A stretch of DNA of 64,000 nucleotides, taken from Mitsuaria chitosanitabida ATCC BAA-476 = NBRC 102408. GTDB taxonomy: Bacteria > Pseudomonadota > Gammaproteobacteria > Burkholderiales > Burkholderiaceae_C. The notes under the pieces are model-generated. The model saw nothing but the letters and a program-made list of their open reading frames with translations, ran no database searches and had not been told where the DNA came from. Position 1 is the first letter of the stretch, and each line of letters starts with the position of its first letter. Both the position numbers and the translations under genes were made by a program. Below, one piece after another: positions 39,361 through 64,000 of the stretch. The DNA lies in contig NZ_BCYP01000036.1 in the NCBI RefSeq assembly GCF_001598255.1, positions 1 to 64,000 on the forward strand, read 5' to 3'.

Positions 39361-39564
39361 CGATGACATCAACCGGCAGGAATCTACCGTTTGTGCCCGC
39401 TGGGCCGCGCCAATCGGCAGAAGCTTGCCGCTTGAGGTGCTCGCCGCCGGTCTAGGGTCAACCCTCTGCCGCTTTCGCCATCCGTGAAAGCTGGCGACGC
39501 CACTCGGCCATTCCGCTGACGCGCGGTCCTTCCCAGAATCCGGCTCCATCACAGGAGACAGGTC

Positions 39565-40761: not shown

Positions 40762-40771
40762 GGACGTCGCG

Positions 40772-41836: not shown

Positions 41837-41988
41837 GGCGGCGCGCCGACCGCGGCCGGCCCCGTGGGCGAAGGTCTCGCCCCGATGCCTCTGCGTCGAC
41901 TGTGACGCGTCCCGACGCCCGGCCTTCGCCGCCCTTTCCTGATCACCGACAACAACGCCGCCACGAGCGGCACCTGCTGGAGACAACC

Positions 41989-44371: not shown

Positions 44372-45127
44372 TCAGATCGCCACCAGCCCCCGGATCTCCG
44401 GCCGCCGCATGTCGGCGTTGTCGCCCCGCGCGATGACGCTGCCGCGCTCCAGCACCAGGAACTCGTCGGCCAGCTCGGCGGCGAAGTCGTAGTACTGCTC
44501 GCACAGCAGGATCGCGACGGGATGGCCGTCCAGCCCCTCGTCGGCCAGGCGCCGGATCACGCGACCGATGTCCTTGATGATGCTGGGCTGGATGCCCTCC
44601 GTGGGCTCGTCCAGGATCAGCAGCCGCGGCGACGCCGCCAGCGCCCGGGCGATCGCGAGCTGCTGCTGCTGGCCGCCGGACAGGTCGCCGCCGCGCCGCT
44701 TCAGCATCTGCCGCAGCACGGGGAAGAGCGCGTACAGGGGCTCCGGCACCGGCGTGCCGCCGGGCTTGCTGGCCAGGCCCATGCGCAGGTTCTCCTCGAC
44801 GGTGAGCCGCGCGAAGATCTCCCGCCCCTGCGGGACGTAGCCGATGCCCGCCCGCGCGCGCTGGTAGGGCGTCGCGCGGCTGATGTCCTTGCCGGCGAGG
44901 GTCACGCTGCCCGAGCGGATCGGCACCAGGCCCATCAGGCTCTTGAGCAGGCTGGTCTTGCCGACGCCGTTGCGGCCCAGCAGCACGGTGACCCGGCCGG
45001 GCGCGGCGCTCACCGACACGTCCCTCAGGATGTGCGAGCCGCCGTAGAACTGATGGATGCCGACGGCTTCCAGCATCGGCGGGGCGACAGGGACCGTGGA
45101 GGTCCGATCTTGCAGTTCAACGTCCAA
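44372..45127 (-). CDS. urtE: Urea ABC transporter ATP-binding protein UrtE
   Basis: This 251-residue ATPase is the second nucleotide-binding subunit of the urea importer. Walker A is LLGRNGVGKTSLLKSLMG, the signature is GGDLSGGQQQQLAIARAL and Walker B is LLILDEPTEGIQPSII, with GYVPQGREIF as the Q-loop region. YGGSHILRDV and TEGIQPSIIKDIG are typical of UrtE rather than LivF. The TTG at 45127 has GAGGTG four bases upstream, inside the end of urtD, and is preferred; an ATG at 45076 is the alternative and would give the more usual UrtE N terminus. Translation is coupled to urtD. It is the last gene of urtABCDE. Confidence 0.93.
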   Translation of the reverse strand: MDVELQDRTSTVPVAPPMLEAVGIHQFYGGSHILRDVSVSAAPGRVTVLLGRNGVGKTSLLKSLMGLVPIRSGSVTLAGKDISRATPYQRARAGIGYVPQGREIFARLTVEENLRMGLASKPGGTPVPEPLYALFPVLRQMLKRRGGDLSGGQQQQLAIARALAASPRLLILDEPTEGIQPSIIKDIGRVIRRLADEGLDGHPVAILLCEQYYDFAAELADEFLVLERGSVIARGDNADMRRPEIRGLVAI

Positions 45128-45953
45128 GGTACACCTCGATCACGCGTTCATCGGCCTGCACCTGGGCCAGGGTGCCCTCCGCCAGCACCGAGCCCTCCGC
45201 CAGCACGGTGACCTGCTCCGCGATGCGGTCGACGAAGCCCATGTCGTGCTCGACGACGATGATGCTGTGCCGACCCTTGAGCGTCAGGATCAGCTCGGCG
45301 GTGCGCTCGGTCTCCTGGTCGGTCATGCCCGCGACCGGCTCGTCGAGCAGCAGCAGCTTGGGGTCCTGCACCAGCAGCATGCCGATCTCCAGCCACTGCT
45401 TCTGGCCGTGGCTCAGCAGCCCGGCCGCGCGCGTCATCCGGTCCTGCAGGCGGATCAGCGTCAGCACCTCGGCCAGCCGGTCCCTCTGCGCGCCGCTCAG
45501 CGTCCCCCACAGCGAGGCCCGCAGCGCGCGCGAGCCCTGCAGCGCGAGCTCCAGGTTCTCGTGGACGCTCAGCGCCTCGAAGACGGTCGGGCGCTGGAAC
45601 TTGCGGCCGATGCCGAGCTGCGCGATCTCGGCCTCGCTGTGGCGCAGCAGGTCGATGGTGCCGCCGAAGAAGACGCTGCCGCTCTGGGGCCGGGTCTTGC
45701 CCGTGATGATGTCCATCATCGTGGTCTTGCCCGCGCCGTTCGGGCCGATGATGCAGCGCAGCTCGCCGGGCGCGATGTCGATGGACAGCTGGTTGATCGC
45801 GCGGAAGCCGTCGAAGCTGACGCTGACGTCCTCCAGGTACAGGATGCGGCCGTGCGCCAGGTCCAGCTGGCCGGGCAGCACCACGCGGCTGTAGCCGGGG
45901 CCGCTCGCGGCGCGCAGTCGCTCGCCGCCTTGCTCCATCAGGTCGGGGCTCAT
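45117..45953 (-). CDS. urtD: Urea ABC transporter ATP-binding protein UrtD
   Basis: This 278-residue ATPase is the first nucleotide-binding subunit of the urea importer. Markers are Walker A GPNGAGKTTMMDIITG, VFFGGTIDLLRHSEAEIAQL, GIGRKFQRPTVFEALSVHEN (UrtD/LivG-type), the signature LLSHGQKQWLEIGMLL in the UrtD form, and Walker B LLLLDEPVAGMTDQE. An N-terminal extension of about 35 residues, including LPGQLDLAHGRILYLEDVSV, is usual for UrtD. The ATG overlaps the urtC stop by four bases. Confidence 0.95.
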   Translation of the reverse strand: MSPDLMEQGGERLRAASGPGYSRVVLPGQLDLAHGRILYLEDVSVSFDGFRAINQLSIDIAPGELRCIIGPNGAGKTTMMDIITGKTRPQSGSVFFGGTIDLLRHSEAEIAQLGIGRKFQRPTVFEALSVHENLELALQGSRALRASLWGTLSGAQRDRLAEVLTLIRLQDRMTRAAGLLSHGQKQWLEIGMLLVQDPKLLLLDEPVAGMTDQETERTAELILTLKGRHSIIVVEHDMGFVDRIAEQVTVLAEGSVLAEGTLAQVQADERVIEVYLGR

Positions 45954-47191
45954 GCCTTCACCTCCGTCGCGTCGGCGACCGCGTCGCCGGTCCGGCGGCC
46001 GAGCTTGCGCTTGACCAGTCCCGCGATGCCGTCGGGCATGAACAGCGTGACCGAGACGAACAGTCCGCCCAGCAGGTAGAGCCAGTACTCCGGCGCGACC
46101 TGCGTCAGCCAGCTCTTCGCGCCGTTGACCGCGAAGGCGCCCGCGATCGGCCCGATCAGCGTGCCGCGGCCGCCGACGGCGGCCCAGACGGCGATCTCGA
46201 TGGAGTTGGCGACGCTCATCTCGCCGGGATTGATGATGCCGACCTGCGGCACGTAGAGCGCGCCCGCCAGGCCGCAGATCAGCGCCGAGAGCACCCAGGC
46301 CGCGAGCTTGTAAGGCAGCGGCGAGTAGCCGCAGAACATCAGCCGCGATTCGGCGTCGCGCACGGCGCTGAGCACGCGGCCGAACTTGGCGCGGGTCAGC
46401 CAGCGCAGACCGAGATAGCAGCCGATCAGCGCGACGGCGCTGAGCACGAACAGCGCCATGCGCATGCCGGCGGTGGTGATGGGCAGGCCCAGCAGCCGCT
46501 TGAAGTCGGTGAAGCCGTTGTTGCCGCCGAAGCCGGTCTCGTTGCGGAAGAAGAGCAGCATCGCGGCGTAGGTCATCGCCTGCGTGATGATCGAGAAGTA
46601 CACGCCCTTGATGCGCGAGCGGAAGGCGAAGAAGCCGAACACGAAGGCGATGCCGCCGGGCACCAGCAGCACCAGCAGCACGGTGGCCAGGAAGCTGTCG
46701 CTCAGGGCCCAGTGCCAGGGGAGTTCCTTCCAGTCCAGGAAGACCATGAAGTCGGGCAGCGCGCTGCGGTACTGGCCGTCGGTGCCGATCTGGCGCATCA
46801 GGTACATGCCCATCGCGTAGCCGCCCAGCGCGAAGTACAGGCCGTGACCCAGCGAGAGGATGCCGGCGAAGCCCCAGATCAGGTCCATCGCCAGCGCGCA
46901 CATCGCGTAGCAGCAGAACTTGCCCAGCAGGCTGATCCAGTAGCCGTCCAGATGCAGTGGGCTGTCGGCGGGCACGAGCAGGTTGAGCGCCGGGATCGCG
47001 ACGCAGGACAGCGCCAGCGCGACCAGCACCGCGATCCAGCCGGCGCGGGTGAGCAGGGCGGGGCGCTCGGGAAGCCGCAGCGCCGCGGGCGGCGAGGTGG
47101 GGGGCGGGATCGCGGTCATGGTGGGGACGGCGGCGGGGGGCGCGGCGTGGGCAGCGGACGAGGCGGGGGCGATGAAGGGGTCGGCGCGCAT
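45950..47191 (-). CDS. urtC: Urea ABC transporter permease UrtC
   Basis: This 413-residue permease of the LivM type has about ten membrane helices. The first ~50 residues are a Pro/Ala-rich cytoplasmic tail. Helices begin with AGWIAVLVALALSCVAIPAL. Diagnostic stretches are MDLIWGFAGILSLGHGLYFA, GIAFVFGFFAFRSRIKGVYF, TGFGGNNGFTDFKRLLGLPI and PGEMSVANSIEIAVWAAVGGRGT, all characteristic of UrtC. Its ATG immediately follows the urtB stop (TGA then ATG), and its stop overlaps urtD. Confidence 0.96.
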   Translation of the reverse strand: MRADPFIAPASSAAHAAPPAAVPTMTAIPPPTSPPAALRLPERPALLTRAGWIAVLVALALSCVAIPALNLLVPADSPLHLDGYWISLLGKFCCYAMCALAMDLIWGFAGILSLGHGLYFALGGYAMGMYLMRQIGTDGQYRSALPDFMVFLDWKELPWHWALSDSFLATVLLVLLVPGGIAFVFGFFAFRSRIKGVYFSIITQAMTYAAMLLFFRNETGFGGNNGFTDFKRLLGLPITTAGMRMALFVLSAVALIGCYLGLRWLTRAKFGRVLSAVRDAESRLMFCGYSPLPYKLAAWVLSALICGLAGALYVPQVGIINPGEMSVANSIEIAVWAAVGGRGTLIGPIAGAFAVNGAKSWLTQVAPEYWLYLLGGLFVSVTLFMPDGIAGLVKRKLGRRTGDAVADATEVKA

Positions 47192-48799
47192 TCAGGTCTC
47201 CTGCGCGCGGCCCTTGACCGCGAAGAGGCCCTGGGGCCGTTTCTGGATGAAGACGATGATGAAGAGCAGCACGGCGATCTTCGCGAGCACCGCGCCGACC
47301 ACCCCTTCGAGCGCCTTGTTGGCCAGGCCCAGTCCCAGCGCGGCGAGCACCGTGCCCGCGAGCTGGCCGACGCCGCCCAGCACCACGACCATGAAGGCGT
47401 CGACGATGTAGCCCTGGCCCAGATCCGGGCCGACGTTGCCGACCTGGCTCAGCGCGCAGCCGGCCAGGCCGGCGAGGCCCGACCCCAGCGCGAAGGCGTA
47501 GGTGTCCACGCGCGCGGTGGGCACCCCCATGCAGGAGGCGATGGGGCGGTTCTGCGTGACGGCGCGGACGAAGAGCCCGAGCCGGGTGCGCGCGATCAGC
47601 AGCGCCATGCCGCCCAGCACCGCCAGCGCGAAGACGATGATCACCAGCCGGTTGGTCGGCAGCGCCAGGCCGGGCAGCAGCGAGAGCGACCCGCCCATCC
47701 ACGACGGGCTCTCGACCGCGACGTTCTGCGCGCCGAAGAGCGAGCGGACGCCTTGCATCAGGGCCAGGCTCAGGCCCCAGGTGGCGAGCAGCGTCTCCAG
47801 CGGCCGGCCGTAGAGCCAGCGGATCACGCTGCGCTCCAGCGCCGCGCCGACCAGGGCCGAGGCGAGGAAGGACACGGGGACCGCGGCGACCAGGTAGAGA
47901 TCGAAGCCGCCTGGCAGCCATTGGCGGAAGGCGACCTGCACGAGGTAGGTGGCGTAGGCGCCGATCATCATCAGCTCGCCGTGGGCCATGTTGATCACGC
48001 CCATCAGGCCGTAGGTGATGGCCAGGCCCAGCGCGACCAGCAGCAGGATGCTGCCCAGGCTGACGCCGGTGAACACCGCGCCCAGGCGCTCGCCCCAGGC
48101 CAGCGTGTCCTCGACCGAGCGCAGCGAGTGCCGCAGCGCGCGCTGGACGGCGGGGTCCTGCTCGTCGGCCAGGCGCTGGTTGAGCAGCAGCCGGGTCTCG
48201 GGGCTGTGGGACTCGCCGAGCTGCTTCGCGGCGGCGAGGCGCTTGGCGGTGTCGGGGCTGGCGGCGAGGGCCGCCGCGCGGGCGAGCCGGAGGGCGTCGA
48301 GGACGGTGGTGTCCTTCTCCTTGGCGATCGCGCCATCGATCAGCGCGACGCGGGCGTCGTCGCCGCCGGCGTCGAGAAGCGCCTTCGCGGCTGAGAGGCG
48401 CTCGGACTTGTCGGGGCTGGAGAGATGCAAGGCGGCCAGCGCGCCGTCGAGCTCGCCGCGCAGGCGGTTGTTGAGCATCACGTCCTCGAGCGAGGACTGG
48501 GCATCGGGCGGAAGCGTCACGGGCGCGCCCGTGGCGGCGTCGAGGAGGGTGGCGTCGGTGGCGATCAGGACGCGGTGGTCGGCGGTCAGCTTGAGGCGCT
48601 CGTCGGCCATGGCCCGCAGCAGGACCGCGGTCCGGTCGTCCGGCGCGGCGACGAGCCGGCCGAGCGCGGCGATGCGATCGTCGGTCTCGCCTTGCGCCAC
48701 GGAGAGCGCCTGCGGCTGGGTGAGCGCGTGGGCGGTCGGTGCGAGCGCCAGCAGGGCCCATGGCAGCGTCGCGGCCAGTCGGCGAAGAAACATCATCAT
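47192..48799 (-). CDS. urtB: Urea ABC transporter permease UrtB
   Basis: This 535-residue protein combines a signal-peptide-led periplasmic domain of about 225 residues (ALTQPQALSVAQGETDDRIA, with helical repeats like DDRTAVLLRAMADERLKLTA) and a LivH-type permease with about eight helices. The long N-terminal domain is a known distinguishing feature of UrtB. The permease part has GSILLLVALGLAITYGLMGVINMAHGELMMIGAYAT split over consecutive helices, and GVPTARVDTYAFALGSGLAG. A short N-terminal run of three Met leaves the exact start open by one or two codons. A palindromic repeat element separates it from urtA. Confidence 0.96.
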   Translation of the reverse strand: MMMFLRRLAATLPWALLALAPTAHALTQPQALSVAQGETDDRIAALGRLVAAPDDRTAVLLRAMADERLKLTADHRVLIATDATLLDAATGAPVTLPPDAQSSLEDVMLNNRLRGELDGALAALHLSSPDKSERLSAAKALLDAGGDDARVALIDGAIAKEKDTTVLDALRLARAAALAASPDTAKRLAAAKQLGESHSPETRLLLNQRLADEQDPAVQRALRHSLRSVEDTLAWGERLGAVFTGVSLGSILLLVALGLAITYGLMGVINMAHGELMMIGAYATYLVQVAFRQWLPGGFDLYLVAAVPVSFLASALVGAALERSVIRWLYGRPLETLLATWGLSLALMQGVRSLFGAQNVAVESPSWMGGSLSLLPGLALPTNRLVIIVFALAVLGGMALLIARTRLGLFVRAVTQNRPIASCMGVPTARVDTYAFALGSGLAGLAGCALSQVGNVGPDLGQGYIVDAFMVVVLGGVGQLAGTVLAALGLGLANKALEGVVGAVLAKIAVLLFIIVFIQKRPQGLFAVKGRAQET

Positions 48800-48975: not shown

Positions 48976-50256
48976 TTACTTCTTCGCGGGCTCGTCCGGC
49001 TTGCCCTCATTGCCGGCGATGTACGGGCTCCACGGCTTGGCCTTGACCGGCGCGGGCGTCTTCCACACCACGTTGAACTGCCCGTCCGCCCGGATCTCCC
49101 CGATGAACACGGACTTGTGCAGGTGGTGGTTCTTCTCGTCCATCTTGGACGTGATGCCCGACGGCGCGCTGAAGGTCTGGCCGGCCATCGCGGCGATGAC
49201 CTTGTCGACGTCGGTCGACTTGGCCTTCTCCACCGCCTGCTTCCACATGTTGATGCCGATGTAGGTCGCCTCCATCGGATCGTTGGTCAGCGGCTTGTCC
49301 TTGTGGCCCGGGATGTTCTTCGCCTTCGCGTAGGCCGACCATTTCTTGATGAACGCGTCGTTGGTCGGGTTCTTGATCGACATGAAGTAATTCCACGCCG
49401 CCAGATGGCCGACCAGCGGCTTGGTGTCGACGCCGCGCAGCTCTTCCTCGCCGACGGAGAAGGCCACCACCGGCACGTCCTTGGCCTTCAGGCCGGCGTT
49501 GCCCAGCTCCTTGTAGAAGGGCACGTTGGAGTCGCCGTTGATGGTCGACACCACCGCCGTCTTGCCGCCGGCGGAGAACTTCTTGATGTCGGCCACGATG
49601 GTCTGGTAATCGCTGTGGCCGAAGGGGGTGTACTTCTCGTCGATGTCCGAGTCCTTCACGCCCTTGCTCTTCAGGTAGGCGCGCAGGATCTTGTTGGTGG
49701 TGCGCGGGTAGACGTAGTCGGTGCCCAGCAGCACCCAGCGCTTGGCGCCGCCGCCGTCCTTGCTCATCAGGTAGTCGACCGCCGGGATGGCCTGCTGGTT
49801 GGGCGCGGCGCCGGTGTAGAAGACGTTCTTGCTGAGCTCCTCGCCCTCGTACTGCACCGGGTAGAAGAGCAGCCCGTTGAGCTCCTCGACCACCGGCAGC
49901 ACCGACTTGCGGGACACCGAGGTCCAGCAGCCGAAGATCACGGCGACCTTGTCCTGGGTCAGCAGCTGGCGGGTCTTCTCGGCGAAGAGCGGCCAGTTGG
50001 AGGCCGGGTCGACGACCACGGGCTCGAGCTTCTTGCCGAGCACGCCGCCCTTGGCGTTGATCTCGTCGATGGCCATCAGGACGGTGTCCTTGAGCACGGT
50101 CTCGGAGATGGCCATGGTGCCCGACAGGCTGTGCAGCACGCCGACCTTGATGGTGTCGGCGGCGAAGGCGGGCAGGGCGGCGAGGTTCAGGCCGGCCAGG
50201 GCGCTGGCGACGGCCAGGGTCTTGAGCGTGCGGCGGCGGGGGACGTGCGAGGACAT
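48976..50256 (-). CDS. urtA: Urea ABC transporter substrate-binding protein UrtA
   Basis: This 426-residue periplasmic binding protein has a signal peptide with an RRR-containing start (SSHVPRRRTLKTLAVASALAG) ending near AFAADT. Its segments are the UrtA hallmark: KVGVLHSLSGTMAISETVLKD near the mature N terminus, VFGCWTSVSRKSVLPVVEE in the form IFGCWTSVSRKSV, YPVQYEGEELSKNVFYTGAA and LLGTDYVYPRTTNKILRAYL. It delivers urea to UrtBC. The start at 50256 puts the signal peptide at the N terminus. It is the first gene of urtABCDE; the 325 bases upstream must hold the operon promoter. Confidence 0.97.
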   Translation of the reverse strand: MSSHVPRRRTLKTLAVASALAGLNLAALPAFAADTIKVGVLHSLSGTMAISETVLKDTVLMAIDEINAKGGVLGKKLEPVVVDPASNWPLFAEKTRQLLTQDKVAVIFGCWTSVSRKSVLPVVEELNGLLFYPVQYEGEELSKNVFYTGAAPNQQAIPAVDYLMSKDGGGAKRWVLLGTDYVYPRTTNKILRAYLKSKGVKDSDIDEKYTPFGHSDYQTIVADIKKFSAGGKTAVVSTINGDSNVPFYKELGNAGLKAKDVPVVAFSVGEEELRGVDTKPLVGHLAAWNYFMSIKNPTNDAFIKKWSAYAKAKNIPGHKDKPLTNDPMEATYIGINMWKQAVEKAKSTDVDKVIAAMAGQTFSAPSGITSKMDEKNHHLHKSVFIGEIRADGQFNVVWKTPAPVKAKPWSPYIAGNEGKPDEPAKK

Positions 50257-50581
50257 GGGGTCGGCTCCGGTGGGGGTGGGGCTCGATCGGATCGAGCGTT
50301 CGGGGACTCCGCCTGGGACTTCGGGCAGTGAGGGGATGCTAGGAACGCGGCGCCGCGCGGGATATACGGCACATGGCGTACGAGGCGGGGAGGCTCCCGC
50401 CCGTCGGTCGTCCGGGCCGGCGGCCGGGACGGTCGCGCCATGTGACCTGTCGTAACACCTCCTCGACGTCGCCGTGCACCGCTCGGGGAAGGGCGGCGTT
50501 GAGGCAACATCCGCCCCTCGCGCGCGGAGGCATCCGCTGCGGAGCCATACCAACAACATCGAAGCACCTGGAGGTCCCGAT
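50257..50581. other. Divergent intergenic region between urtA and the DUF3395-like gene
   Basis: No gene is seen in these 325 bases. The region should contain the urtA promoter (minus strand) and the promoter of the plus-strand gene at 50582. I found no convincing sigma-54 -24/-12 element. A 17-bp palindrome lies close to urtA and is listed separately. GGAGG precedes the plus-strand ATG. Confidence 0.6.
50281..50297. promoter_or_regulatory. 17-bp palindrome in the urtA leader
   Basis: GCTCGATC and GATCGAGC are perfect inverted copies around a single G, beginning 25 bases before the urtA ATG. A site of this size and place fits a dimeric regulator binding downstream of the promoter, or a leader hairpin. 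No other copy was noticed in the window. Confidence 0.5.
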
Positions 50582-51637
50582 ATGTCCTCGATGACTCTTT
50601 CCCTGCCGACGCCCGCCCGGGCGACGGCGCTGCGCGCGGTGACGCGCTGGCTGCTGGCGGCGATCGCGCTGCTGGCGGCGCTGACGGCGGGCTCCTCCGC
50701 CTGGGCCCGCGACGACGGCGACTGGCAGATCCTGCAGGCGCGCTACGGCACCTCGTCGCGCAACATCGACGTCACCGAACGGCTGCGCGAGGTGGCGCGT
50801 TCCGACCGCCGGGTGCGGGTCGAGAACGAGCTCTTCGGCACCGACCCGGCGCCGCGCGAGATGAAGACCCTGCGCCTCTACGCCCGCAACCGCGGCGGCG
50901 AGACCCGCACCTTCGAGTTCCGCGAGGGCTCGATCATCGACGGCGACGACTTCACCGGCTGGGATCGCGGCGACTGGGGCCGTGGCGGCTGGAACGGCGG
51001 CTGGGACGGCGACCGCCGCGATGACCGCCGGGACGAGCGTCGCGACGACGGCGCGTACCAGATCCTGGGCGCCCGCTACGGCGTTCCCGACGCCAACATC
51101 GACGTCACCGACCGCCTGAAGCAACTGGCGCGTCGCGATCTGAAGGTGCAGATCACCAACGACCTGTTCCGTGACGACCCGGCGCCGCGCCGCCTGAAGA
51201 CGCTGCGCATCTATGCCCGCGGCCGCGACGGCGACGTGCGCACCTTCGAGTACCGCGAGGGCTCGTGGATCGACGGCGGCCAGTTCACCGGCTGGGGCCG
51301 GGGTGACTGGGGCGACCGCAACTGGAACGGCAACTGGGAAGGTGGCATCGGCGGCGCGCTGCGCCAGGGCTACAACCAGGGCGCGGGCCCGAGCATCGAC
51401 GGCCGCGTGAACATCATCCGTGCCAGCTACGGCGCCAACGGCCGCAGCATCGACGTGACCGATCGTCTGCGCAACATCAGCCGCGGCGGCCCGGTCGACC
51501 TGCGGGTGAGCAACGACCTCTTCGACCGCGATCCGGCGGAAGGCAGCCGCAAGACGCTGCGCGTGGTCTTCAGCATCGGCCGCGGCGAGGAGCAAGTGGC
51601 CGAGGCCCGCGAGGGCGACCGCCTGCGCTTCCCCTGA
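50582..51637 (+). CDS. Exported protein with three DUF3395-like repeats
   Basis: The protein has 351 residues with a signal peptide (about 1-42, ending SAWA). It contains three copies of one ~73-residue domain, at about 48-120, 158-230 and 277-351. Each has the pattern ILxARYG...IDVTxRL...LFxxDPA...KTLR, followed by a beta strand and EFREG/EYREG. The pattern resembles DUF3395, also found at the end of eukaryotic DNAJC11. Linkers are Gly/Trp/Asp/Arg-rich (for example GWDRGDWGRGGWNGG), probably flexible. The function is unknown. It is divergent from urtA and followed by a hairpin terminator. The start is set by GGAGG six to eight bases before the ATG. Confidence 0.85.
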   Translation: MSSMTLSLPTPARATALRAVTRWLLAAIALLAALTAGSSAWARDDGDWQILQARYGTSSRNIDVTERLREVARSDRRVRVENELFGTDPAPREMKTLRLYARNRGGETRTFEFREGSIIDGDDFTGWDRGDWGRGGWNGGWDGDRRDDRRDERRDDGAYQILGARYGVPDANIDVTDRLKQLARRDLKVQITNDLFRDDPAPRRLKTLRIYARGRDGDVRTFEYREGSWIDGGQFTGWGRGDWGDRNWNGNWEGGIGGALRQGYNQGAGPSIDGRVNIIRASYGANGRSIDVTDRLRNISRGGPVDLRVSNDLFDRDPAEGSRKTLRVVFSIGRGEEQVAEAREGDRLRFP

Positions 51638-51716: not shown

Positions 51717-52778
51717 CTACACCTCCCAGCTCGGATGCATCTCCCTCACCCGCGTGAGCGCCATGGCGGCCGCGGCGGTGCGGGTCTCGACGCCGAGCTT
51801 GGCGTGGATGCGCTCCAGGTGCTTCTTCACCGTCGCCGGGCTCGCGCCGAGGATCTCCCCGATGTCGCGGTTGATCTTGCCCTTCACCACCCAGTACAGC
51901 ACCTCCGCCTCCCGCGCCGTCAGGCTGAAGACCAGCCCCAGCGAGCGGATCACCGCCGCGTCCGACACCTCCCGCATCACGATCAGCCAGTCGCCGCCCG
52001 GGGCACTCGCCGTCGTCGCGTTCGAGCCCCCGCCGGCGCCCGTTGGGTCCGATGCGCCCGGGGCATCCTCACCGCCGATGCAGTTGTGCAGCCGGAAGCT
52101 CAGGCGCCGCGCGCCCAGCTCGGCGCTGAGGCGGGGCGGCTCCTGCGTCGCGGGGCTGTCGCCCATCTCCTCCAGGCTCCGGCGCAGCCAGGCCAGCACC
52201 GGGGCCGGCGTCTGCGGCGCGACCGTGCCGTAGTAGAGCTGCAGCAGCTCCCGCGCCAGCGGCGTCTGCCACAGCAGGCGGCCCGTGGACGCCCGCACCG
52301 CGATGCTCGCGTAGCCGAAGGCGTCCAGCGCCTGGCGGGTCTGCCGCGCCTGACGCGCCCCTTGCAGATGCACCTGCATGCGGGCCAGCACCGCGCGCGG
52401 ATCCAGGGGCTTGGTCACGTAGTCCACGCCACCGGCCTGGAGCGCCGCCACCAGATGCTCGGTCTCCGTCAGGCCGGTCATGAACACGATCGGGATGTGC
52501 GCCGTCACCGGGTTGGCCTTGAGCCGCCGCGCGACCTCGAAGCCGTCCATGCCCGGCATCATCGCGTCCAGCAGCACGATGTCGGGCTGGCCCTGCAGCG
52601 CGCTGGCCAGCGCGGCCTCGCCGCTGGTGGCGGCGAGCACGGTGTAGCCGTGCTCGTCCAGCGCATCGTGCAGCAGCGACAGGTTGTCCGGCACGTCGTC
52701 GACGACCAGGACGCGATCGCCCTGCTGCTGGTCCAGCAGCGCGGCCACGGCGGAGGGCAGGGGAGGATTCATCGTCAT
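51717..52778 (-). CDS. LuxR-type response regulator coupled to the NCS1-kinase gene
   Basis: This 353-residue protein has a receiver domain (about 21-140) with the Asp pair DD (27-28), phosphoacceptor Asp71 in DIVLLDAMMPG and Lys123 in VTKPLD. A middle region of about 130 residues carries GYASIAVRASTGRLLWQTPLA, a PAS-like segment, and a Gly/Ala/Thr-rich loop. A C-terminal LuxR helix-turn-helix (about 285-350) includes LTAREAEVLYWVVKGKINRD and ASPATVKKHLERIHAKLGVE. It binds DNA as the output of the sensor kinase encoded immediately upstream, to which it is coupled by an ATGA overlap. Targets could include the nearby urea and urease genes; that is inference. Confidence 0.92.
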   Translation of the reverse strand: MTMNPPLPSAVAALLDQQQGDRVLVVDDVPDNLSLLHDALDEHGYTVLAATSGEAALASALQGQPDIVLLDAMMPGMDGFEVARRLKANPVTAHIPIVFMTGLTETEHLVAALQAGGVDYVTKPLDPRAVLARMQVHLQGARQARQTRQALDAFGYASIAVRASTGRLLWQTPLARELLQLYYGTVAPQTPAPVLAWLRRSLEEMGDSPATQEPPRLSAELGARRLSFRLHNCIGGEDAPGASDPTGAGGGSNATTASAPGGDWLIVMREVSDAAVIRSLGLVFSLTAREAEVLYWVVKGKINRDIGEILGASPATVKKHLERIHAKLGVETRTAAAAMALTRVREMHPSWEV

Positions 52779-55700
52779 GCAGGGTTCTCGCTGCGCGCGA
52801 GCATGCGCAGCATCGCTTCGAACTGGAACTGTCGCGCCAGCGTCCGCTGGCGCTCGCAGAAGGGCAGCCATGCGGGATCCGCCGCCTCGATCTCGTCGAG
52901 CTGGGACAGCACGCCGCGGTAGTAGCCCAGGGACAGGGCCTCGCTCAGGCCGGTCAGGCGCTCCGGCGGCGGCATGTCGCCGGCCCGGCGCGAGCCCGAC
53001 GCCTCGCCCGACGCCTCGCCCGGTGCCGATGCCGGTGTCGATGCCGTCGGCCCCTCTGGCGTCACCCGCCACTTCAGCGCGAGTCGCTCGGTGAGCCAAT
53101 CCAGCAGCAGCTCGTGCCGCACCGGCTTGACGATGAAGTCGCGCGCGCCGATGCCGGCGTCGTTCTCCTGACCGCGCTCGAAGGCGTTGGCCGAGACCAC
53201 CGCGATCGGTGGCGACGTGGCCAGCATCGCGCGCAGTCGCCGGATGGTCTCCCAGCCGTCGATGCCCGGCATCGCCAGATCCATCAGCACGGCGTCCGGC
53301 ACCCAGCCCGCGGCGATCAGGTCCAGCGCGTCATGGCCGCTCGAGGCCTCGCGCACGGTGAAGCCCAGCGGCGCCAGCAGCTCGATCAGCAACTGGCGGT
53401 CATCCGCCTCGTTGTCGACGACCAGCAGGCGCGGCGACGCGCCGTCCACGCCCAGCCGCTGCCGCGCCGCGGCGGCCGCCCGCATGCGCGGCGAGTCGGG
53501 AATGCGGCCGTGCAGCTCCGGCAGGAACAGCCGCACGCGGAAGGTGGAGCCCGCGCCCGGCGTGCTGGTGGCCGACATCTCGCCGCCCATCAGCTCGGTG
53601 AGCATCTTGGCGATCGTCAGGCCCAGCCCCGCGCCCGGCGCGGCGCTGCCGCCGCGCGCGCTGCTGGCGCTGGCGCCGCGGGCGAAGGGCTCGAAGATGC
53701 GCGCGAGCTCGGCCGCATCCATGCCGGGACCGGTGTCCTCGATCTCCAGCGTCGCCATCTCGCGCCCGTGCCGCACGCGCAGCGTGACGCCGCCCTCGGC
53801 GGTGAACTTGATGGCATTGCCCAGCAGATTGATCAGGATCTGCCGCAGTCGCTGCTCGTCCGCGCGGACCCACCCAGGCAAGGTGCCCGCGGTCTCGAAG
53901 CGGAAGCGCAGGCCCTTGGCCGCGGCCTGCGGCTCGAACATGTCGGCCAGCTCCTGCAGCAGATCCGCGAAGCGCAGCGGCGCGGGCTCCAGGCTGAGCC
54001 GGCCGGCTTCGATGCGCGCGATGTCCAGCGTGCCGTCGATCAGCCGCATCAGGTGCTCGCCGCCACGCTTGATCACCTGCACCGCCTGGCGCCGCTGCGG
54101 CGGCAGCGAGGCGTCGGCCGCCATCAGCTGCGCGTAGCCGAGGATGCTGTTCAGCGGGGTGCGCAGCTCATGGCTGATGGTGCTGATGTAGCGGCTCTTG
54201 GCCTGGTTGGCCGCCTCGGCCGAGGCCTGGGCGCGCTCGGCCTGCAGCCGCGCGCCCTGCAGCGCCTCGTCGGTGCGGCGGTGGGAGTCGATCTCCCGCA
54301 CCAGCGCCTGGGTCTGGCGGTTGGACTCCTCCTGCGCGACCTGGCGGCTCTGATGCGCCAGCACCAGCCACCAGGCGACCGTCCCCGCGACCAGCAGCAG
54401 CGCGAAGAAGGCCTTGAGCAGCCCGGCCTTGAGGCCGATGCGCAGCGCCTCCTGCGAGGCCGCGTCGATCAGCGGGATCTGCGGCAGCTGTTGCAGCTGC
54501 TGGTGGTAGAGCAAGCCGAACAGCATGGCCAGCAGCGGCGTCACCACCAGCATCAGCAGCAGGTAGTGGCCCAGGCCGGTGTCGAGGTAGGGCCAGCTGG
54601 CGCGCGGCAGCAGGCGGCGCAGCAGCGCGTTCCACTGCGAGGCCAGACTGGCCTGGGGCTTGCACAGATCGCCGCAGCGCGCGTCCAGCGTGCAGCACAG
54701 GGAGCAGATCGCGCCGCGATAGGCCGGGCAGTGGGCCATGTCGGGCCCCTCGTACTCGCGCTCGCAGATGACGCAGCGGTGCAGCACGTCGCGGCCCAGG
54801 GACGCCGGGCAGTGGGCGATCTCCTCGGCCGGTCGCGCCAAGTAGTATCGCCCCTTCGTCGCCCAGGCGATCAGCGGCGCGGCGACCAGCGCCGTCACCA
54901 TCGCGATGGCCGCGGACCAGGCCTGCGCGAGCGCGCCCATCAGACCGAGGTGCGCCGCCACCGACAGCACCGAGGCCAGCGCCATCGCGCCGACGCCGAC
55001 CGGATTCACGTCGTACAGGTGGGCGCGCTTGAACTCGATCCCCGGGGGGGAGAGCCCCAGCGGCTTGTTGATCACCAGGTCCGCGACGACGGCCATGATC
55101 CAGGCGATCGCGATGTTGGCGTAGAGACCCAGCACGTGCCCGAGCGCCTCGAACACGTTCATCTCCATCAGCATGAAGGCGATCAGCGTGTTGAAGACGA
55201 CCCAGACCACGCGCCCGGGATGGCTGTGGGTCAGGCGGGAGAAGAAGTTGCTCCACGCCAGCGAGCCGGCGTAGGCGTTGGTCACGTTGATCTTGAGCTG
55301 GGAGACGACCACGAAGAGCGCCGTGATCGCCACGGCCCAGCCGTACTGCGGGAATACGTACTCGTAGGCGGCCAGGTACATCTGGTTGGGATCGACGGCC
55401 CGCTCCGGCGGCACCGCGTGGCTCACGGCCAGCCAGGCCAGCAGCGCGCCGCCCAGCATCTTGAGCACGCCCAGCACGACCCAGCCCGGCCCGCCCAGCA
55501 GCACCGCCGCCCACCAGCGGCGGGCGTTGCCGGCGGTGCGGCGGGGCATGAAGCGCAGATAGTCGGCCTGCTCGCCCATCTGCGTGATCAGCGCCACGCC
55601 GACGGTGAGCGCCGCACCGAAGGCGTGCGCGTCGAAGCCGGCCGTGCCGGACTGCGACCCAATCTGGGTCGTCACGCCATCAAATGCACCAGGGTGGCGC

Positions 55701-56305
55701 CAGCCCACCCAGGCGAAGGGCAGCACGAGCAGGGCCAGCCAGAGCGGCTGGGTCCAGAGCTGCAGCCGGCTGATGGCGGAGATGCCGTGGGTGACCAGCG
55801 GGATCACGACCAGCGCGCACAGCAGGTAGCCCCATTGGGGCGGGATGTCGAGGGCCAGCTCCAGCGCGTAGGCCATCACCGCGGCCTCGAGCGCGAAGAA
55901 GATGAAGGTGAAGCTGGCGTAGATCAGCGAGGTCAGCGTGGAGCCGATGTAGCCGAAGCCCGCGCCGCGGGTCAGCAGGTCCATGTCGACGCCGTGACGG
56001 GCGGCGTAGACGCTGATGGGCAGGCCGGCGAGGAAGATGATCAGCCCGGTCGCGAGGATGGCCAGGGCGGCGTTGGTCCAGCCGTAGTGCAGCAGCAGCG
56101 TCGCGCCGACGGCTTCCAGGATCAGGAAGGAGGCGGCACCGAAGGCGGTGTTGGCCACGCGCCAGGAGGACCAGCGCCGGAAGCGCTGCGGGGTGTAGCG
56201 GAGGGCGTAGTCCTCCAGTGTTTCGCGCGCCACCCAGGCGTTGTAGTCCCGCCGCAGCTTGATGATGTGCTGCGGGGCGTCGGTGGGGGCGAGCGGCGTG
56301 TCCAT
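52775..56305 (-). CDS. NCS1 permease fused to hybrid histidine kinase
   Basis: This 1,176-residue membrane protein joins four parts. Residues 1-490 are a complete NCS1 (nucleobase/allantoin/cytosine:cation symporter) permease with about twelve helices (IIKLRRDYNAWVARETLEDY, RGAGFGYIGSTLTSLIYASF, ITQMGEQADYLRFMP, LKINVTNAYAGSLAWSNFF). Residues 499-548 hold nine Cys in CVIC, CSLCC and CGDLC groups. Two more helices (about 580-655) and a coiled coil lead to the kinase: ISTISHELRTPLNS (His712), a GNAIKF N-box and DTGPGM. The receiver (958-1080) has Asp1009, and a helical C-terminal region follows. This is the architecture of a transporter-derived sensor (compare SSS-family CbrA). It lies between urtABCDE and ureABC and is coupled to a LuxR regulator. 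The start at 56305 is preferred over ATGs at 56326 and 56371. Confidence 0.9.
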   Translation of the reverse strand: MDTPLAPTDAPQHIIKLRRDYNAWVARETLEDYALRYTPQRFRRWSSWRVANTAFGAASFLILEAVGATLLLHYGWTNAALAILATGLIIFLAGLPISVYAARHGVDMDLLTRGAGFGYIGSTLTSLIYASFTFIFFALEAAVMAYALELALDIPPQWGYLLCALVVIPLVTHGISAISRLQLWTQPLWLALLVLPFAWVGWRHPGAFDGVTTQIGSQSGTAGFDAHAFGAALTVGVALITQMGEQADYLRFMPRRTAGNARRWWAAVLLGGPGWVVLGVLKMLGGALLAWLAVSHAVPPERAVDPNQMYLAAYEYVFPQYGWAVAITALFVVVSQLKINVTNAYAGSLAWSNFFSRLTHSHPGRVVWVVFNTLIAFMLMEMNVFEALGHVLGLYANIAIAWIMAVVADLVINKPLGLSPPGIEFKRAHLYDVNPVGVGAMALASVLSVAAHLGLMGALAQAWSAAIAMVTALVAAPLIAWATKGRYYLARPAEEIAHCPASLGRDVLHRCVICEREYEGPDMAHCPAYRGAICSLCCTLDARCGDLCKPQASLASQWNALLRRLLPRASWPYLDTGLGHYLLLMLVVTPLLAMLFGLLYHQQLQQLPQIPLIDAASQEALRIGLKAGLLKAFFALLLVAGTVAWWLVLAHQSRQVAQEESNRQTQALVREIDSHRRTDEALQGARLQAERAQASAEAANQAKSRYISTISHELRTPLNSILGYAQLMAADASLPPQRRQAVQVIKRGGEHLMRLIDGTLDIARIEAGRLSLEPAPLRFADLLQELADMFEPQAAAKGLRFRFETAGTLPGWVRADEQRLRQILINLLGNAIKFTAEGGVTLRVRHGREMATLEIEDTGPGMDAAELARIFEPFARGASASSARGGSAAPGAGLGLTIAKMLTELMGGEMSATSTPGAGSTFRVRLFLPELHGRIPDSPRMRAAAAARQRLGVDGASPRLLVVDNEADDRQLLIELLAPLGFTVREASSGHDALDLIAAGWVPDAVLMDLAMPGIDGWETIRRLRAMLATSPPIAVVSANAFERGQENDAGIGARDFIVKPVRHELLLDWLTERLALKWRVTPEGPTASTPASAPGEASGEASGSRRAGDMPPPERLTGLSEALSLGYYRGVLSQLDEIEAADPAWLPFCERQRTLARQFQFEAMLRMLARSENPA

Positions 56306-56344
56306 GGGGGCGCTCGGGAAATGCATGAAGCATGCCGGGCTTGG

Positions 56345-56469
56345 GGGCTCGCTGTGTGGCCCGGCCCTCACCCCAACCCCTCTCCCACTTCATGGGAGAG
56401 GGGCTTCCATGCGCCACGCCATGTGGAGCCCCTCTCCCGCTGCGCGGGAGAGGGGTTGGGGTGAGGGCC
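56345..56469. repeat. Palindromic repeat pair between the sensor gene and ureA
   Basis: The left arm (56363-56403) and right arm (56429-56469) are inverted copies of the same family as 48868-48957, preceded by the shared flank GGCTCGCTGTGTGGC (56347-56361). Both arms contain CTCTCCC/GGGAGAG hairpins. The element overlaps the probable promoter zone of the sensor and urease genes. Confidence 0.85.
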
Positions 56470-56494
56470 GTCGCACACCAGAGCCTGTATGACT

Positions 56495-56535
56495 CCCTCT
56501 CCCGCAAGGCGGGAGAGGGCGGGGGAGAGGGTCTT
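56495..56535. repeat. Additional single arm of the palindromic repeat family
   Basis: The sequence CCCTCTCCCGC-AAG-GCGGGAGAGGG followed by GCGGGGGAGAGGGTCTT matches the hairpin core and the AGACCCTC end of the family, in inverted orientation. It lies 40 bases before the ureA start. Confidence 0.7.
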
Positions 56536-56574
56536 CCTCCAGCACCGGCATGGTGCTTGCTAGCAGTCCCCCCC

Positions 56575-56877
<303 letters not shown>

Positions 56878-57492: not shown

Positions 57493-57794
57493 TCCCCGGC
57501 GAGCTGCTGACCGACCCCGGCGAGCTGCCGCTCAACCCGGGTCGTCGCACGGTCACCCTGACCGTGATCAACGCCGCGGATCGCCCCATCCAGGTGGGCT
57601 CGCATTACCACTTCGCCGAAACCAACGGCGCGCTGAACTTCGACCGCGAGGCCGCGCGCGGCATGCGGCTCAACATCGCGTCCGGCACCGCCGTGCGCTT
57701 CGAGCCCGGCCAGCAGCGCACCGTCGAACTGGTCGACTTCGCCGGCACCCGCGAGATCTGGGGATTCCGCGGCCTGATCCAGGGAGCGCTCTGA
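57489..57794 (+). CDS. ureB: Urease beta subunit
   Basis: This 101-residue subunit is the normal size. [40 protein letters not shown] and [20 protein letters not shown] are characteristic. It is a separate subunit from UreA, as in most proteobacteria. Its stop shares one base with the ureC start (TGATG). Confidence 0.97.
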
Positions 57795-59512
57795 TGGCCC
57801 GCATCGGCAAACGCGCCTACGCCGAGATGTTCGGCCCCACCGTCGGCGATCGTGTCCGGCTGGCCGACACCGCGCTGGTCATCGAGGTCGAGCAAGACCT
57901 GACCCTGCGCGCCGGCGGCTATGGCGAGGAAGTGAAGTTCGGCGGCGGCAAGACCATCCGCGACGGCATGGCGCAGTCGCAGCGCACGCGCGCGCAGGGC
58001 GCCGTGGACACGGTGCTGACCAACGCGCTGATCCTGGACCACTGGGGCATCGTCAAGGCGGACATCGGCCTGAAGGACCACCGCATCGTCGCCATCGGCA
58101 AGGCCGGGAATCCGGACACGCAGCCGGGGGTGGACATCGTCATCGGGCCCGGCACCGAGGTGATCGCCTGCGAGGGCAACATCGTCACCGCCGGCGCGAT
58201 CGACTCCCACATCCACTTCATCTGCCCGCAGCAGATCGAGGAGGCCCTGGCCAGCGGCGTGACCACGATGCTGGGCGGCGGCACCGGTCCGGCGACCGGC
58301 ACCTTCGCCACCACCTGCACGCCGGGGCCCTGGCACCTCGAGCGCATGCTGCAGGCGGCCGATGCCTTCCCGATGAACCTGGGCTTCCTGGGCAAGGGGA
58401 ACGCGAGCCGGCCCGAGGGCCTGGTCGAGCAGATCGAGGCCGGCGCGATCGGGCTGAAGCTGCACGAGGACTGGGGCACCACGCCCGCGGCGATCAGCAA
58501 CTGCCTGGACGTCGCGGAGCTCACCGACACCCAGGTCGCCATCCACACCGACACGCTCAACGAGAGCGGCTTCGTCGAGGACACGGTGGCCGCCTTCAAG
58601 GGCCGCACCATCCACACCTTCCACACGGAAGGGGCGGGCGGCGGCCATGCGCCGGACATCCTGAAGGTGGTCGGCGAGGCCAACGTGCTGCCCAGCTCGA
58701 CCAATCCGACGCGCCCGTACACCATCAACACGCTCGACGAGCACGTCGACATGCTGATGGTCTGCCACCACCTGGATCCGGCCATCGCCGAGGACCTGGC
58801 CTTCGCCGAGAGCCGCATCCGCAAGGAGACCATCGCGGCCGAGGACATCCTGCACGACCTGGGCGCGATCAGCATGTTCAGCTCGGACTCGCAGGCCATG
58901 GGCCGCGTGGGCGAGGTGATCCTGCGCTGCTGGCAGACCGCGCACAAGATGAAGCAGCAGCGCGGGCAGTTGCCCGGCGACAGCGAGCGGCACGACAACG
59001 GTCGCGTGAAGCGCTACGTGGCCAAGCTGGCGATCAATCCGGCGATCGCGCACGGCGTCTCGCACGAGGTCGGCAGCATCGAGGTCGGCAAGTGGGCCGA
59101 CCTGGTCATCTGGAAGCCGGCCTTCTTCGGCGTGAAGCCGGCGCTGATCCTCAAGGGCGGCGTGATCGCGATGGCCGCGATGGGCGATCCCAACGCGTCC
59201 ATCCCGACGCCGCAGCCCGTGCACTACCGGCCGATGTTCGGGAGCTACGGCGGCTCGCTGACGCGCGCCTCGCTGAGCTTCGTGTCGCAGGCCGCGATCG
59301 CGGCGGGCGCGCCGGCCCGCTACGGTCTGGCCAAGCAGGCCGTGGCGGTGAAGGGCATTCGCGGCGTGGGCAAGAAGGACATGGTCCACAATGCCTACGC
59401 CCCGCGGATGGAGGTCGATCCCCAGACCTACGCGGTGCGCGCCGACGGCCTGTTGCTGCACTGCGAGCCCGCCACGGCGCTCCCGATGGCGCAGCGCTAC
59501 TTCCTGTTCTGA
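57794..59512 (+). CDS. ureC: Urease alpha (catalytic) subunit
   Basis: This 572-residue catalytic subunit hydrolyses urea to ammonia and carbamate with two nickel ions. Every active-site residue is present: His139 and His141 (SHIHF), the carbamylated Lys222 (GLKLHEDWG), His224, His251, His277 ([11 protein letters not shown]), the flap Cys324-His325 (MVCHHLDP) and Asp365. All are offset by exactly five from the Klebsiella enzyme numbering. The protein should be fully active. Its stop shares one base with the ureE start. Confidence 0.98.

Positions 59513-60957: not shown

Positions 60958-60961
<4 letters not shown>
60203..60961 (+). CDS. ureF: Urease accessory protein UreF, start uncertain
   Basis: The conserved UreF part begins [31 protein letters not shown], and it continues with [38 protein letters not shown] and the C-terminal segment [14 protein letters not shown], all typical. 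UreF, bound to UreD, admits UreG to the urease. Between the ureE stop and the conserved start there is no ATG, GTG or TTG in this frame. The nearest is the ATG at 60203 inside the ureE His-rich tail, giving a 252-residue protein with a Thr-rich leader ([18 protein letters not shown]) generated by reading the His repeats out of frame. Initiation at a CTG near 60288 is the alternative. Confidence 0.88.
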
Positions 60962-61647
<686 letters not shown>

Positions 61648-62677: not shown

Positions 62678-64000
62678 TCAGGCGATCTGGGGAGCCGCCT
62701 CGCTCGGGCCGTCCTTGTCGTGGTCGTCGCCGCCGGCCTTGCTCTTGGCGCCCTTGCGGGCAGTCATGAAGAAGGCGATCAGTTGCCAGGCGATGAACAC
62801 CGCGATGATGCCCAACAGCGTCGCGCTGATCGGGCGCTGCACGAAGACGTCGAACTTGCCGCGGCTGATCAGCATCGCGCGACGGAAGTTCTCCTCCAGC
62901 ATCGGGCCCAGGATGAAGCCCAGCATCAGCGGCGCGGGGTCCATGTCCAGCCGCATGAAGATGTAGCCGGCCAGGCCGAAGGCCGCGGTGACGAAGACGT
63001 CGTCCAGGTTGTTGTTGACGCTGAAGGTGCCGATGCAGCAGAAGAACAGGATCGACGGGAACAGCACGTTGTACGGGATCTTGAAGACCGACAGCCAGTA
63101 GCGCACCAGAGGCACGTTCAGCACGACCAGGAACACGTTGCCGATCCACATCGAGGCGACCAGGCCCCAGAAGATGTCGGGGTGGCCGGCGATCATGTTG
63201 GGGCCCGGCTGGATGCCCTTGATGATGAACGCGGCCATCATCAGCGCCATCACCGGGTTCTCCGGGATGCCGATCGACATCAGCGGGATGAAGCTGGTGC
63301 GGGCGGCCGACTCGTCCGCCGCGGCCTGACCGGCCACGCCCTCGATCGCGCCGTCGCCGATCTCGTGGCGGTACTTGCTGACCTTCTTGTCCACGGCATA
63401 GGCCGCGAACTGCGCGATGGTCGGGCCGCCGCCGGGCAGGATGCCCAGGATCGAGCCCACCACGCTGCCGCGCAGCGCGCTCGGGATGATGCGCTTGAAC
63501 TCCGGCCACGTGGGCATCAGGTGGATCTTGCCGTTGAAGGGCGTGCGCTCGTTCTTGGCGTCCAGGTTCTTGGAGATCTCCGCGATGCCGAAGCAGCCCA
63601 GCGCGATGCTCACCAGGCCCACGCCCTCGGCCAGGAAGGGCATGTCGAAGGTGTAGCGCTCCATGCCCGAGTTCACGTCCGTGCCGATCTGGCCGAACAG
63701 CACGCCGATCAGGCACATGGCCAGGCCGTTGAGCAGGCTGCCGGTGGTCACGAAGCTCACGCAGAGGAAGCCGAGCAACATCAGCGCGCAGTAGTCGGCG
63801 GGGCCGAACAGGAAGGCCACCTCGCCCAGCGTCGGGGCCAGGCAGGCCAGCACCACGATGGCGACGGTGCCGCCGATGAAGCTCGAGATGCCCGCGGTGA
63901 ACAGGGCCAGGCCTGTCTTCCCTTTCAGGGTCATCTGGTACCCGTCGATGCAGGCCACGATCGAGCTCGCGTGCGGGATCTTCATCGTGATCGCGCTGAC
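62678..64000 (-). CDS. tctA: TctA family tricarboxylate transporter permease (5' end outside the window)
   Basis: The frame runs off the window at 64000, and the first ~100 residues of TctA are missing; 440 residues remain. The visible part has many membrane helices with the signatures VACIDGYQMTLKGKTGLALF, GILPGGGPTIAQFAAYAVDK, FIPLMSIGIPENPVMALMM, NVLFPSILFFCCIGTFSVNN and LGPMLEENFRRAMLIS. It is the large permease of the tripartite tricarboxylate transporter, which imports carboxylates with a sodium or proton gradient using a periplasmic TctC and small TctB. The C terminus is a charged Lys/Asp-rich tail. The M at 63985 is not a start; it lies inside the conserved region. Confidence 0.94.
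   Translation of the reverse strand, partial: VSAITMKIPHASSIVACIDGYQMTLKGKTGLALFTAGISSFIGGTVAIVVLACLAPTLGEVAFLFGPADYCALMLLGFLCVSFVTTGSLLNGLAMCLIGVLFGQIGTDVNSGMERYTFDMPFLAEGVGLVSIALGCFGIAEISKNLDAKNERTPFNGKIHLMPTWPEFKRIIPSALRGSVVGSILGILPGGGPTIAQFAAYAVDKKVSKYRHEIGDGAIEGVAGQAAADESAARTSFIPLMSIGIPENPVMALMMAAFIIKGIQPGPNMIAGHPDIFWGLVASMWIGNVFLVVLNVPLVRYWLSVFKIPYNVLFPSILFFCCIGTFSVNNNLDDVFVTAAFGLAGYIFMRLDMDPAPLMLGFILGPMLEENFRRAMLISRGKFDVFVQRPISATLLGIIAVFIAWQLIAFFMTARKGAKSKAGGDDHDKDGPSEAAPQIA

Follow-up and report, generated by a model that had tools for sequence, protein, structure and literature searches.

Bacterial transporter-kinases of the SLC5/STAC type are already known: in CbrA, RpuS and CrbS a carrier of the LeuT fold and a histidine kinase are joined in one chain, with a cytoplasmic domain between them (PMC13022988, PMC7096432, PMC9100948 and PMC5715377, cited, like all papers given here by accession, from the excerpts available to us). 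Here we describe a protein of the same general plan, 1176 residues long, encoded between urea-uptake and urease genes in a stretch of 64,000 nucleotides from Mitsuaria chitosanitabida (contig NZ_BCYP01000036.1, positions 1 to 64,000; the window). It combines a membrane domain resembling the NCS1 carriers, a module of eight cysteines (Cys8), two further helices and a hybrid histidine kinase, and we think it rather probable that it is a receptor built from a permease, which binds urea or a similar small amide and drives the urea-uptake (urt), urease (ure) and formamidase (fmd) genes through a LuxR-type regulator. Its likeness to the known systems extends to a lysine in the Na2 site of CbrA (PMC13022988) and to the control by RpuS/R of the permease gene (mctP) beside it. 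It differs from them in that the carrier is NCS1-like rather than SLC5, in that the Cys8 module and two helices stand in the place of STAC, in its linkage to urt, ure and fmd genes, and in that Pfam detects no PAS domain in the kinase. A first-pass annotation, made from the sequence alone, had named CbrA as the precedent, which holds for the architecture but not for the carrier family or the Cys module.

Gene clusters of the same kind, with urtABCDE and formamidase, have been described as the ‘UTS’ of Klebsiella CG307 (PMC13060141), in P. veronii (PMC13209695) and as operon III of E. guguanensis (PMC13296017), and the legend to the urea-gene figure of the last names a hybrid histidine kinase and a LuxR-family regulator. 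In the excerpts of these three papers the permease part of the kinase is not remarked on, and in PMC13060141 and PMC13209695 the term ‘histidine kinase’ gives 0 matches. Among the open-literature matches listed, which leave most subscription papers outside, we found no description of a bacterial sensor kinase as a urea receptor or as of NCS1 type, and no transporter-kinase that is NCS1-like, bears Cys8 and is linked to urea genes.

The kinase and its membrane domain

Pfam recognised HisKA, HATPase_c and Response_reg domains in the protein; the SHELRTP box and the receiver aspartate, Asp1009, are present and a LuxR-type regulator is co-encoded, as in a hybrid sensor kinase. The reading frame, the Pfam matches and the structural model together bore out the single chain of permease-like part, Cys cluster, two helices, kinase and receiver set out in the first-pass annotation, and also its four-base overlap with the regulator gene, in which the ATGA at 52775-52778 supplies both the TGA of the kinase and the ATG of the regulator. 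The kinase frame could alternatively open at the GTG at 56371.

The membrane part is not recognised by the usual family models. Residues 1-543 gave no Pfam family beyond a chance match and no SLC5-type match, and PF02133, the Pfam NCS1 family, gave no match to the membrane domain up to E 10; the same model does pick out a different gene in this genome (6e-48). Residues 32-253 matched the cytosine permease model of NCBIfam weakly (E 2.4e-5). A search of solved structures by sequence gave no match for the single protein and, for the profile, just a RING-like match no better than chance (E 5.2). However, when an AlphaFold2 model of residues 1-660, built from 71 homologues (mean pLDDT 78.3, pTM 0.79), was compared with the PDB by Foldseek, Mhp1 and CodB took ranks 1-5 (TM-score by target length 0.62-0.73, 15-18% identity), with SGLT2 and other SLC5 structures below NCS1. 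Alignment of the family against CodB and four other NCS1 proteins by hhalign gave 98.9%, E 3.5e-17, over 417 columns, and with a larger family alignment 98.0%, E 2.1e-13, over 354 columns. Since fold and profile match but PF02133 fails, in fold and descent the domain is NCS1-like, a remote branch outside the usual family, which carries a C-terminal Cys module that Mhp1 and CodB lack; the ‘full-length NCS1 permease’ of the earlier annotation thus stands as a fold and a distant homology, not as a member of the family.

TM1, TM3 and TM8 aligned alike in both hhalign comparisons, allowing the substrate and sodium site residues of CodB (Trp108, Gln105 and Asn280, and Thr278/Thr279; PMC9379551) to be located. 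In the profile alignment Trp108 corresponds to F136, Gln105 to T133 and Asn280 to N340, and, via the alignment of CodB with Mhp1, Gln121 of Mhp1 falls at E140. The Trp108 position is Phe in 151/166 and Leu in 15/166 fused rows; the position of its partner in TM6, Phe204, is of uncertain register. The loss of this TM3 Trp and of Gln105 would count against a nucleobase-type ligand. The sodium-site residues Thr278/Thr279 align in both comparisons with K338/I339, so that the Na2-site Thr/Ser hydroxyls of TM8 are not kept. Seven residues, Q242, E245, Q246, D248, K338, N340 and N343, are identical in all 166 fused rows and in all 16 rows of the stand-alone permeases described below, and sensor and permease therefore share them. 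With the invariant Lys338, and Ile339, at the aligned sodium site, and with CbrA likewise having a lysine there, sodium coupling has probably been lost; the sodium site, whose retention the first-pass annotation proposed to check, is thus probably not kept. We also looked for a residue code separating urease-linked from formamidase-linked sensors. Residue 241 is Thr in 61/70 of the former and 4/42 of the latter, but because nine urease-linked rows differ, the contrast probably reflects descent and is not taken as a specificity code. Two more distant ‘cytosine permeases’ (L153 and L211) without the Cys pattern have Arg at the Lys338 position and Glu at 140, and in the Pantoea member of this pair a nitrilase-type gene follows.

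The eight cysteines (C511, C514, C526, C534, C537, C538, C544 and C548) are present in 164/164 fused copies. In the AlphaFold2 model the module has a local pLDDT of 54-72 with short strands and helices, and it may perhaps form a two-metal cytoplasmic domain. Nine stand-alone permeases of urease clusters keep C511, C514, C534 and C537 and not the full pattern, and this loss of the other four together suggests two separate four-Cys metal sites. The module is not exclusive to kinases, because six permeases of fmdA operons and one further stand-alone (L321) carry it. The NCS1-Cys8 module was also seen in shorter kinases of 864-996 residues (L151, L200, L208 and L257) and in longer ones of 1225-1272 residues (L255/L256); at L255-L257 urt, ure and fmd genes are missing nearby.

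Distribution and linkage to urea and formamide genes

A full-length homologue was found in 15/15 other genomes of the genus searched, and the module occurred at E <= 1e-20 in 52/398 genomes drawn evenly from the phylum, the window's own included, ruling out the fusion as a local accident. From this even sample we fetched 57 loci outside the window, in stretches of mostly 20 kb, and 53 lay near urt, urease or formamidase genes, compared with 0/20 control kinases beside urt, ure or fmdA (Fisher p 7e-15; one control had a single urt-like match). At least three urt genes were present at 44 of the 57 loci, formamidase (fmdA/amiF) at 35 and ure genes at 11. To our knowledge formamidase is not a step of the nucleobase, hydantoin or allantoin pathways, which counts against a ligand from these pathways. 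The four unlinked loci comprise one whose contig ends at the kinase (L180), one on a 4.8-kb contig (L210), a distant stand-alone (L211) and L209, in whose genome a UrtA match lies 6.6 kb from the module, at the edge of the fetched stretch. UrtA itself (E <= 1e-100) was found in 51/52 carrier genomes and 118/346 others (p 2e-20, the two genome lists being compared by eye); because the linked urtA copies count in this co-occurrence, the two tests are not independent.

Similar linkage was seen among the relatives, taken as the best 80 of 564 matches and mostly from Burkholderiales: 57 were linked at strict thresholds, many contigs being short, and, at looser thresholds, 44 of the 54 with full flanks were linked to urt/ure. 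In one genome (G686, L254) two fused copies are separated by about 9.5 kb; each has a regulator of its own, and one lies beside urt. UreC was encoded in 17/20 genomes picked mainly for their unlinked copies. A tblastn search (E <= 1e-5, distant stand-alones counted) found matches in 531 plasmid records, of which 342 are from Klebsiella; in annotated plasmids 10/10 fused copies, hand-picked mostly for having annotation, adjoin urt, ure or formamidase genes. In the plasmid neighbourhoods that we read, no genes of purine or pyrimidine catabolism were seen among those annotated, the gene tables being incomplete and, for one further record, empty. The proposal of the first-pass annotation, a sensor derived from a transporter and linked to urea uptake and urease, is therefore supported by the conservation of the fusion and by its linkage at 53 of 57 loci; the contrary outcome that it had named, no conservation and no nitrogen linkage elsewhere, did not occur.

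Stand-alone sister permeases and the probable descent of the sensor

Evidence on the ligand comes from 16 close stand-alone relatives of the membrane domain whose surroundings we read. Nine lie in urease clusters: that of A. lwoffii directly 5' of ureEFG, that of a K. pneumoniae record (labelled plasmid, and carrying dnaG and rpoD), called cytosine permease, directly after ureG, and those of seven further genomes also after ureG, one frame coding for just 383 aa. Six others head a permease-fmdA-fmdB-nitrilase group, divergent from the fused copy, at the place taken by urtABCDE in other genomes; these have all eight cysteines and no kinase. The sixteenth (L321, G881:C1:587937-589484) is divergent in sequence, has the eight cysteines and lacks D63, and neither urease nor formamidase was found nearby. 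Three genomes (G869, G876 and G879) hold all three forms, the fused one and both stand-alone kinds. These settings suggest that the ligands are urea and small amides rather than products of purines or pyrimidines, and, judged by their position in urease and fmdA clusters, the sisters would be urea/amide permeases. The purine- or pyrimidine-derived substrate of the earlier annotation is accordingly disfavoured: its catabolic genes were not seen in the incomplete tables mentioned above, and the stand-alones lie by urease or formamidase.

In a tree of the permease part only, calculated with a mixture model, 61 fused rows formed one side of a branch (SH-aLRT 99) with the stand-alones on the other. 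An earlier, quicker tree had put a single Cys8 stand-alone inside the fused group; we place more trust in the permease-part tree, which includes more stand-alones. Because the two trees conflict, and the root lies on a very long outgroup branch, we regard the direction of change, from permease to sensor, as no more than likely. On this reading an amide permease became, probably through one fusion, a receptor for the same substrates. The residues that separate the two forms lie in TM1 and TM8: fused rows have F60, L/C/M/I63 and E64 (165/165 rows with the residue) and A346 (166/166), whereas the stand-alones have Y60 and D63 (14/15 each, L321 differing), F/Q64 (15/15) and S346 (16/16). The compared rows are related, so that such contrasts amount to few independent events.

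We tentatively extend this reading, with less confidence than in the receptor itself, to the whole branch: it may be an unrecognised bacterial family of urea/formamide permeases, including the Klebsiella ‘cytosine permease’ after ureG, from which one ancient fusion would have given a receptor family, the change from Y60/D63/F/Q64/S346 to F60/L63/E64/A346 marking the step and the invariant lysine replacing the sodium ion.

Proposed mechanism and alternatives

We infer the ligand, the sensing role of the NCS1-like domain and the direction of control as follows. The domain would bind urea, or a closely similar small amide such as formamide, outside the cell, and a change of state would travel through the Cys8 module and on through the two further helices, reaching the HisKA dimer. 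From there the phosphoryl group would pass to the co-encoded LuxR-type regulator, with the built-in receiver as relay or brake, and the regulator would turn on the genes for uptake (urtABCDE or the stand-alone sister permease) as well as those for breakdown (urease or formamidase). Since both urea and formamide contain the H2N-C=O group, one conserved site for both kinds of locus would fit.

Several points weigh against this receptor. Urease-linked and formamidase-linked copies do not differ in their conserved residues, by which urea therefore cannot be told from formamide. The CodB alignment rests on about 20% identity, and the register of TM6 differs between the two alignments. The control kinases were drawn from 60 relatives rather than the phylum sample, and 2/20 of their stretches were shorter than 20 kb. 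Among the relatives with full flanks, 10/54 lacked urt/ure genes, eight of these being from Zoogloeaceae, Rhodocyclaceae or Azonexaceae, where the kinase/regulator pair looks orphaned; among ten neighbours of unlinked copies, Pfam recognised none as a urea or amide gene. Finally, the SLC5 domain of CbrA is a transporter in its own right, and the kinase is able to function in its absence (PMC7096432), so that a carrier joined to a kinase is not necessarily the sensor.

The strongest alternative, although an unlikely one, is a working transceptor, in which urea or an amide would still be carried by the domain together with protons and the transport cycle would be read by the kinase. Histidine transport by CbrA is probably proton-driven (PMC7096432), and the Na2-site lysine of that protein (PMC13022988) has a counterpart here in Lys338, aligned with CodB Thr278; in addition, the core residues are common to the fused copies and the stand-alone permeases. 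However, the substitutions in TM1 and TM8 of the fused copies are as one might expect if transport had been given up.

We regard it as improbable that the Cys8 module is the real sensor, of zinc, nickel or redox state, with the NCS1 domain as an anchor or a separately used transporter. Urease needs nickel, and the constancy of the eight cysteines in every fused copy, together with the RING-like match, albeit at chance level, would fit such a role. But the NCS1 residues are as conserved as the cysteines, the seven stand-alones that have the module lie outside the fused clade, so that it is not tied to a kinase, and more copies accompany formamidase (35/57) than urease (11/57); we know of no need for nickel in formamidase. 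Least probable of all, and very doubtful in our view, is that the domain senses a nucleobase, hydantoin, allantoin or other purine or pyrimidine product with the urea genes as the downstream pathway, since the NCS1 fold and homology, and the nucleobase, hydantoin or allantoin substrates of most NCS1 proteins characterised from bacteria (PMC9379551, PMC13390362), are outweighed by the commonest partners (urt 44/57, formamidase 35/57) and by the stand-alone sisters. Nor is NCS1 restricted to ring compounds, for MetT carries metformin (PMC13390362).

The locus and its promoters

The features of the locus are collected in Table 1. The kinase/regulator pair is co-oriented with urt, urtABCDE lying downstream, and divergent from ureA; the flanking genes are as the first-pass annotation described, with the additions of this divergence and of one ORF on the opposite strand before urtA. 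All of UrtA-E exceed their NCBIfam cut-offs, and because the UrtA profile covers residues 137-511 only, the true urtA start should lie lower than the ORF start.

Table 1. Positions of the kinase, its domains and neighbouring features in the window.
Feature	Position	Strand	Basis
NCS1-like/Cys8/HisKA-HATPase-REC hybrid sensor kinase, 1176 aa from ATG 56305	52775..56305	-	Frame, Pfam, homologues
NCS1-like membrane domain, about residues 18-492	54830..56254	-	AlphaFold2 model, Foldseek, hhalign
Eight-cysteine module, residues 511-549	54659..54775	-	Cys pattern in homologues
Two further helices, residues 568-609 and 615-659	54329..54604	-	Model helices
HisKA (702-768) and HATPase_c (816-928)	53522..54202	-	Pfam
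Receiver, residues 961-1069, phospho-acceptor Asp1009	53099..53425	-	Pfam Response_reg, conservation
Response regulator, receiver and LuxR-type HTH, 353 aa	51717..52778	-	Pfam
Sigma54-like -24/-12 element towards kinase, weak, 2 mismatches	56322..56337	-	Pattern search
Sigma54-like -24/-12 element towards ureA	56546..56561	+	Pattern search
ureA, first gene of divergent urease operon	56575..56877	+	Read by eye; counterpart is annotated urease gamma of Mitsuaria sp. 7
ureC	57794..59512	+	NCBIfam, E 0
UreG-type gene (same region, after UreC)	60958-61647		Pfam CobW/HypB/UreG match
urtA ORF	48976..50559	-	TIGR03407, 602.6 bits
urtB, urtC, urtD, urtE	44372..48799	-	TIGR03409, 03408, 03411, 03410, above cut-off

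Sigma54 promoters are associated with nitrogen limitation. In 57 kinase-ureA gaps of the urease type, sigma54-like elements with up to 2 mismatches (<=2) pointed towards the kinase in 49 and towards ureA in 52, where Markov-resampled sequences gave an expectation of about 1.7; in 14 regions of the urtA type the counts were 3 and 1. Over the whole window the pattern is not above chance, but its placement and recurrence in relatives are, and both elements in the window would leave very short leaders. In the urease group, control by the regulator would be set on top of these sigma54 promoters. A search for a palindromic operator of the regulator gave nothing convincing common to the ureA-type and urtA-type regions.

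The kinase-ureA gap also contains a GC-rich palindromic element (56354-56534), with 52-nt arms that are 83% complementary and further 25-nt inverted copies; three relatives (L100, L119 and L155) have shorter gaps without it. The ORF between the regulator and urtA (50474-51637, plus strand, 387 aa) begins, as judged by eye, with a signal-like stretch and contains three repeats of the unit ARYG...IDVTDRL...YREGS...DG; it matches no Pfam family at E 1e-4. The urea region is flanked by parts of tripartite tricarboxylate systems, with a LysR regulator, a CoA-transferase III and TctC at 38452-42966 and a TctA gene at 62678-63985.

Implications

If the proposed receptor is correct, the bacteria that carry it would have a sensor for a nitrogen compound that is among the commonest in soil and urine, and the switching on of the urt, urease and formamidase genes would be explained. 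It would also give a function to proteins now called ‘cytosine permease’ or ‘ATP-binding protein’, a relative of which is found in the 342 Klebsiella plasmid records, and the fused and stand-alone forms would together provide a natural experiment on the change from transporter to receptor, with the residues to swap already marked.

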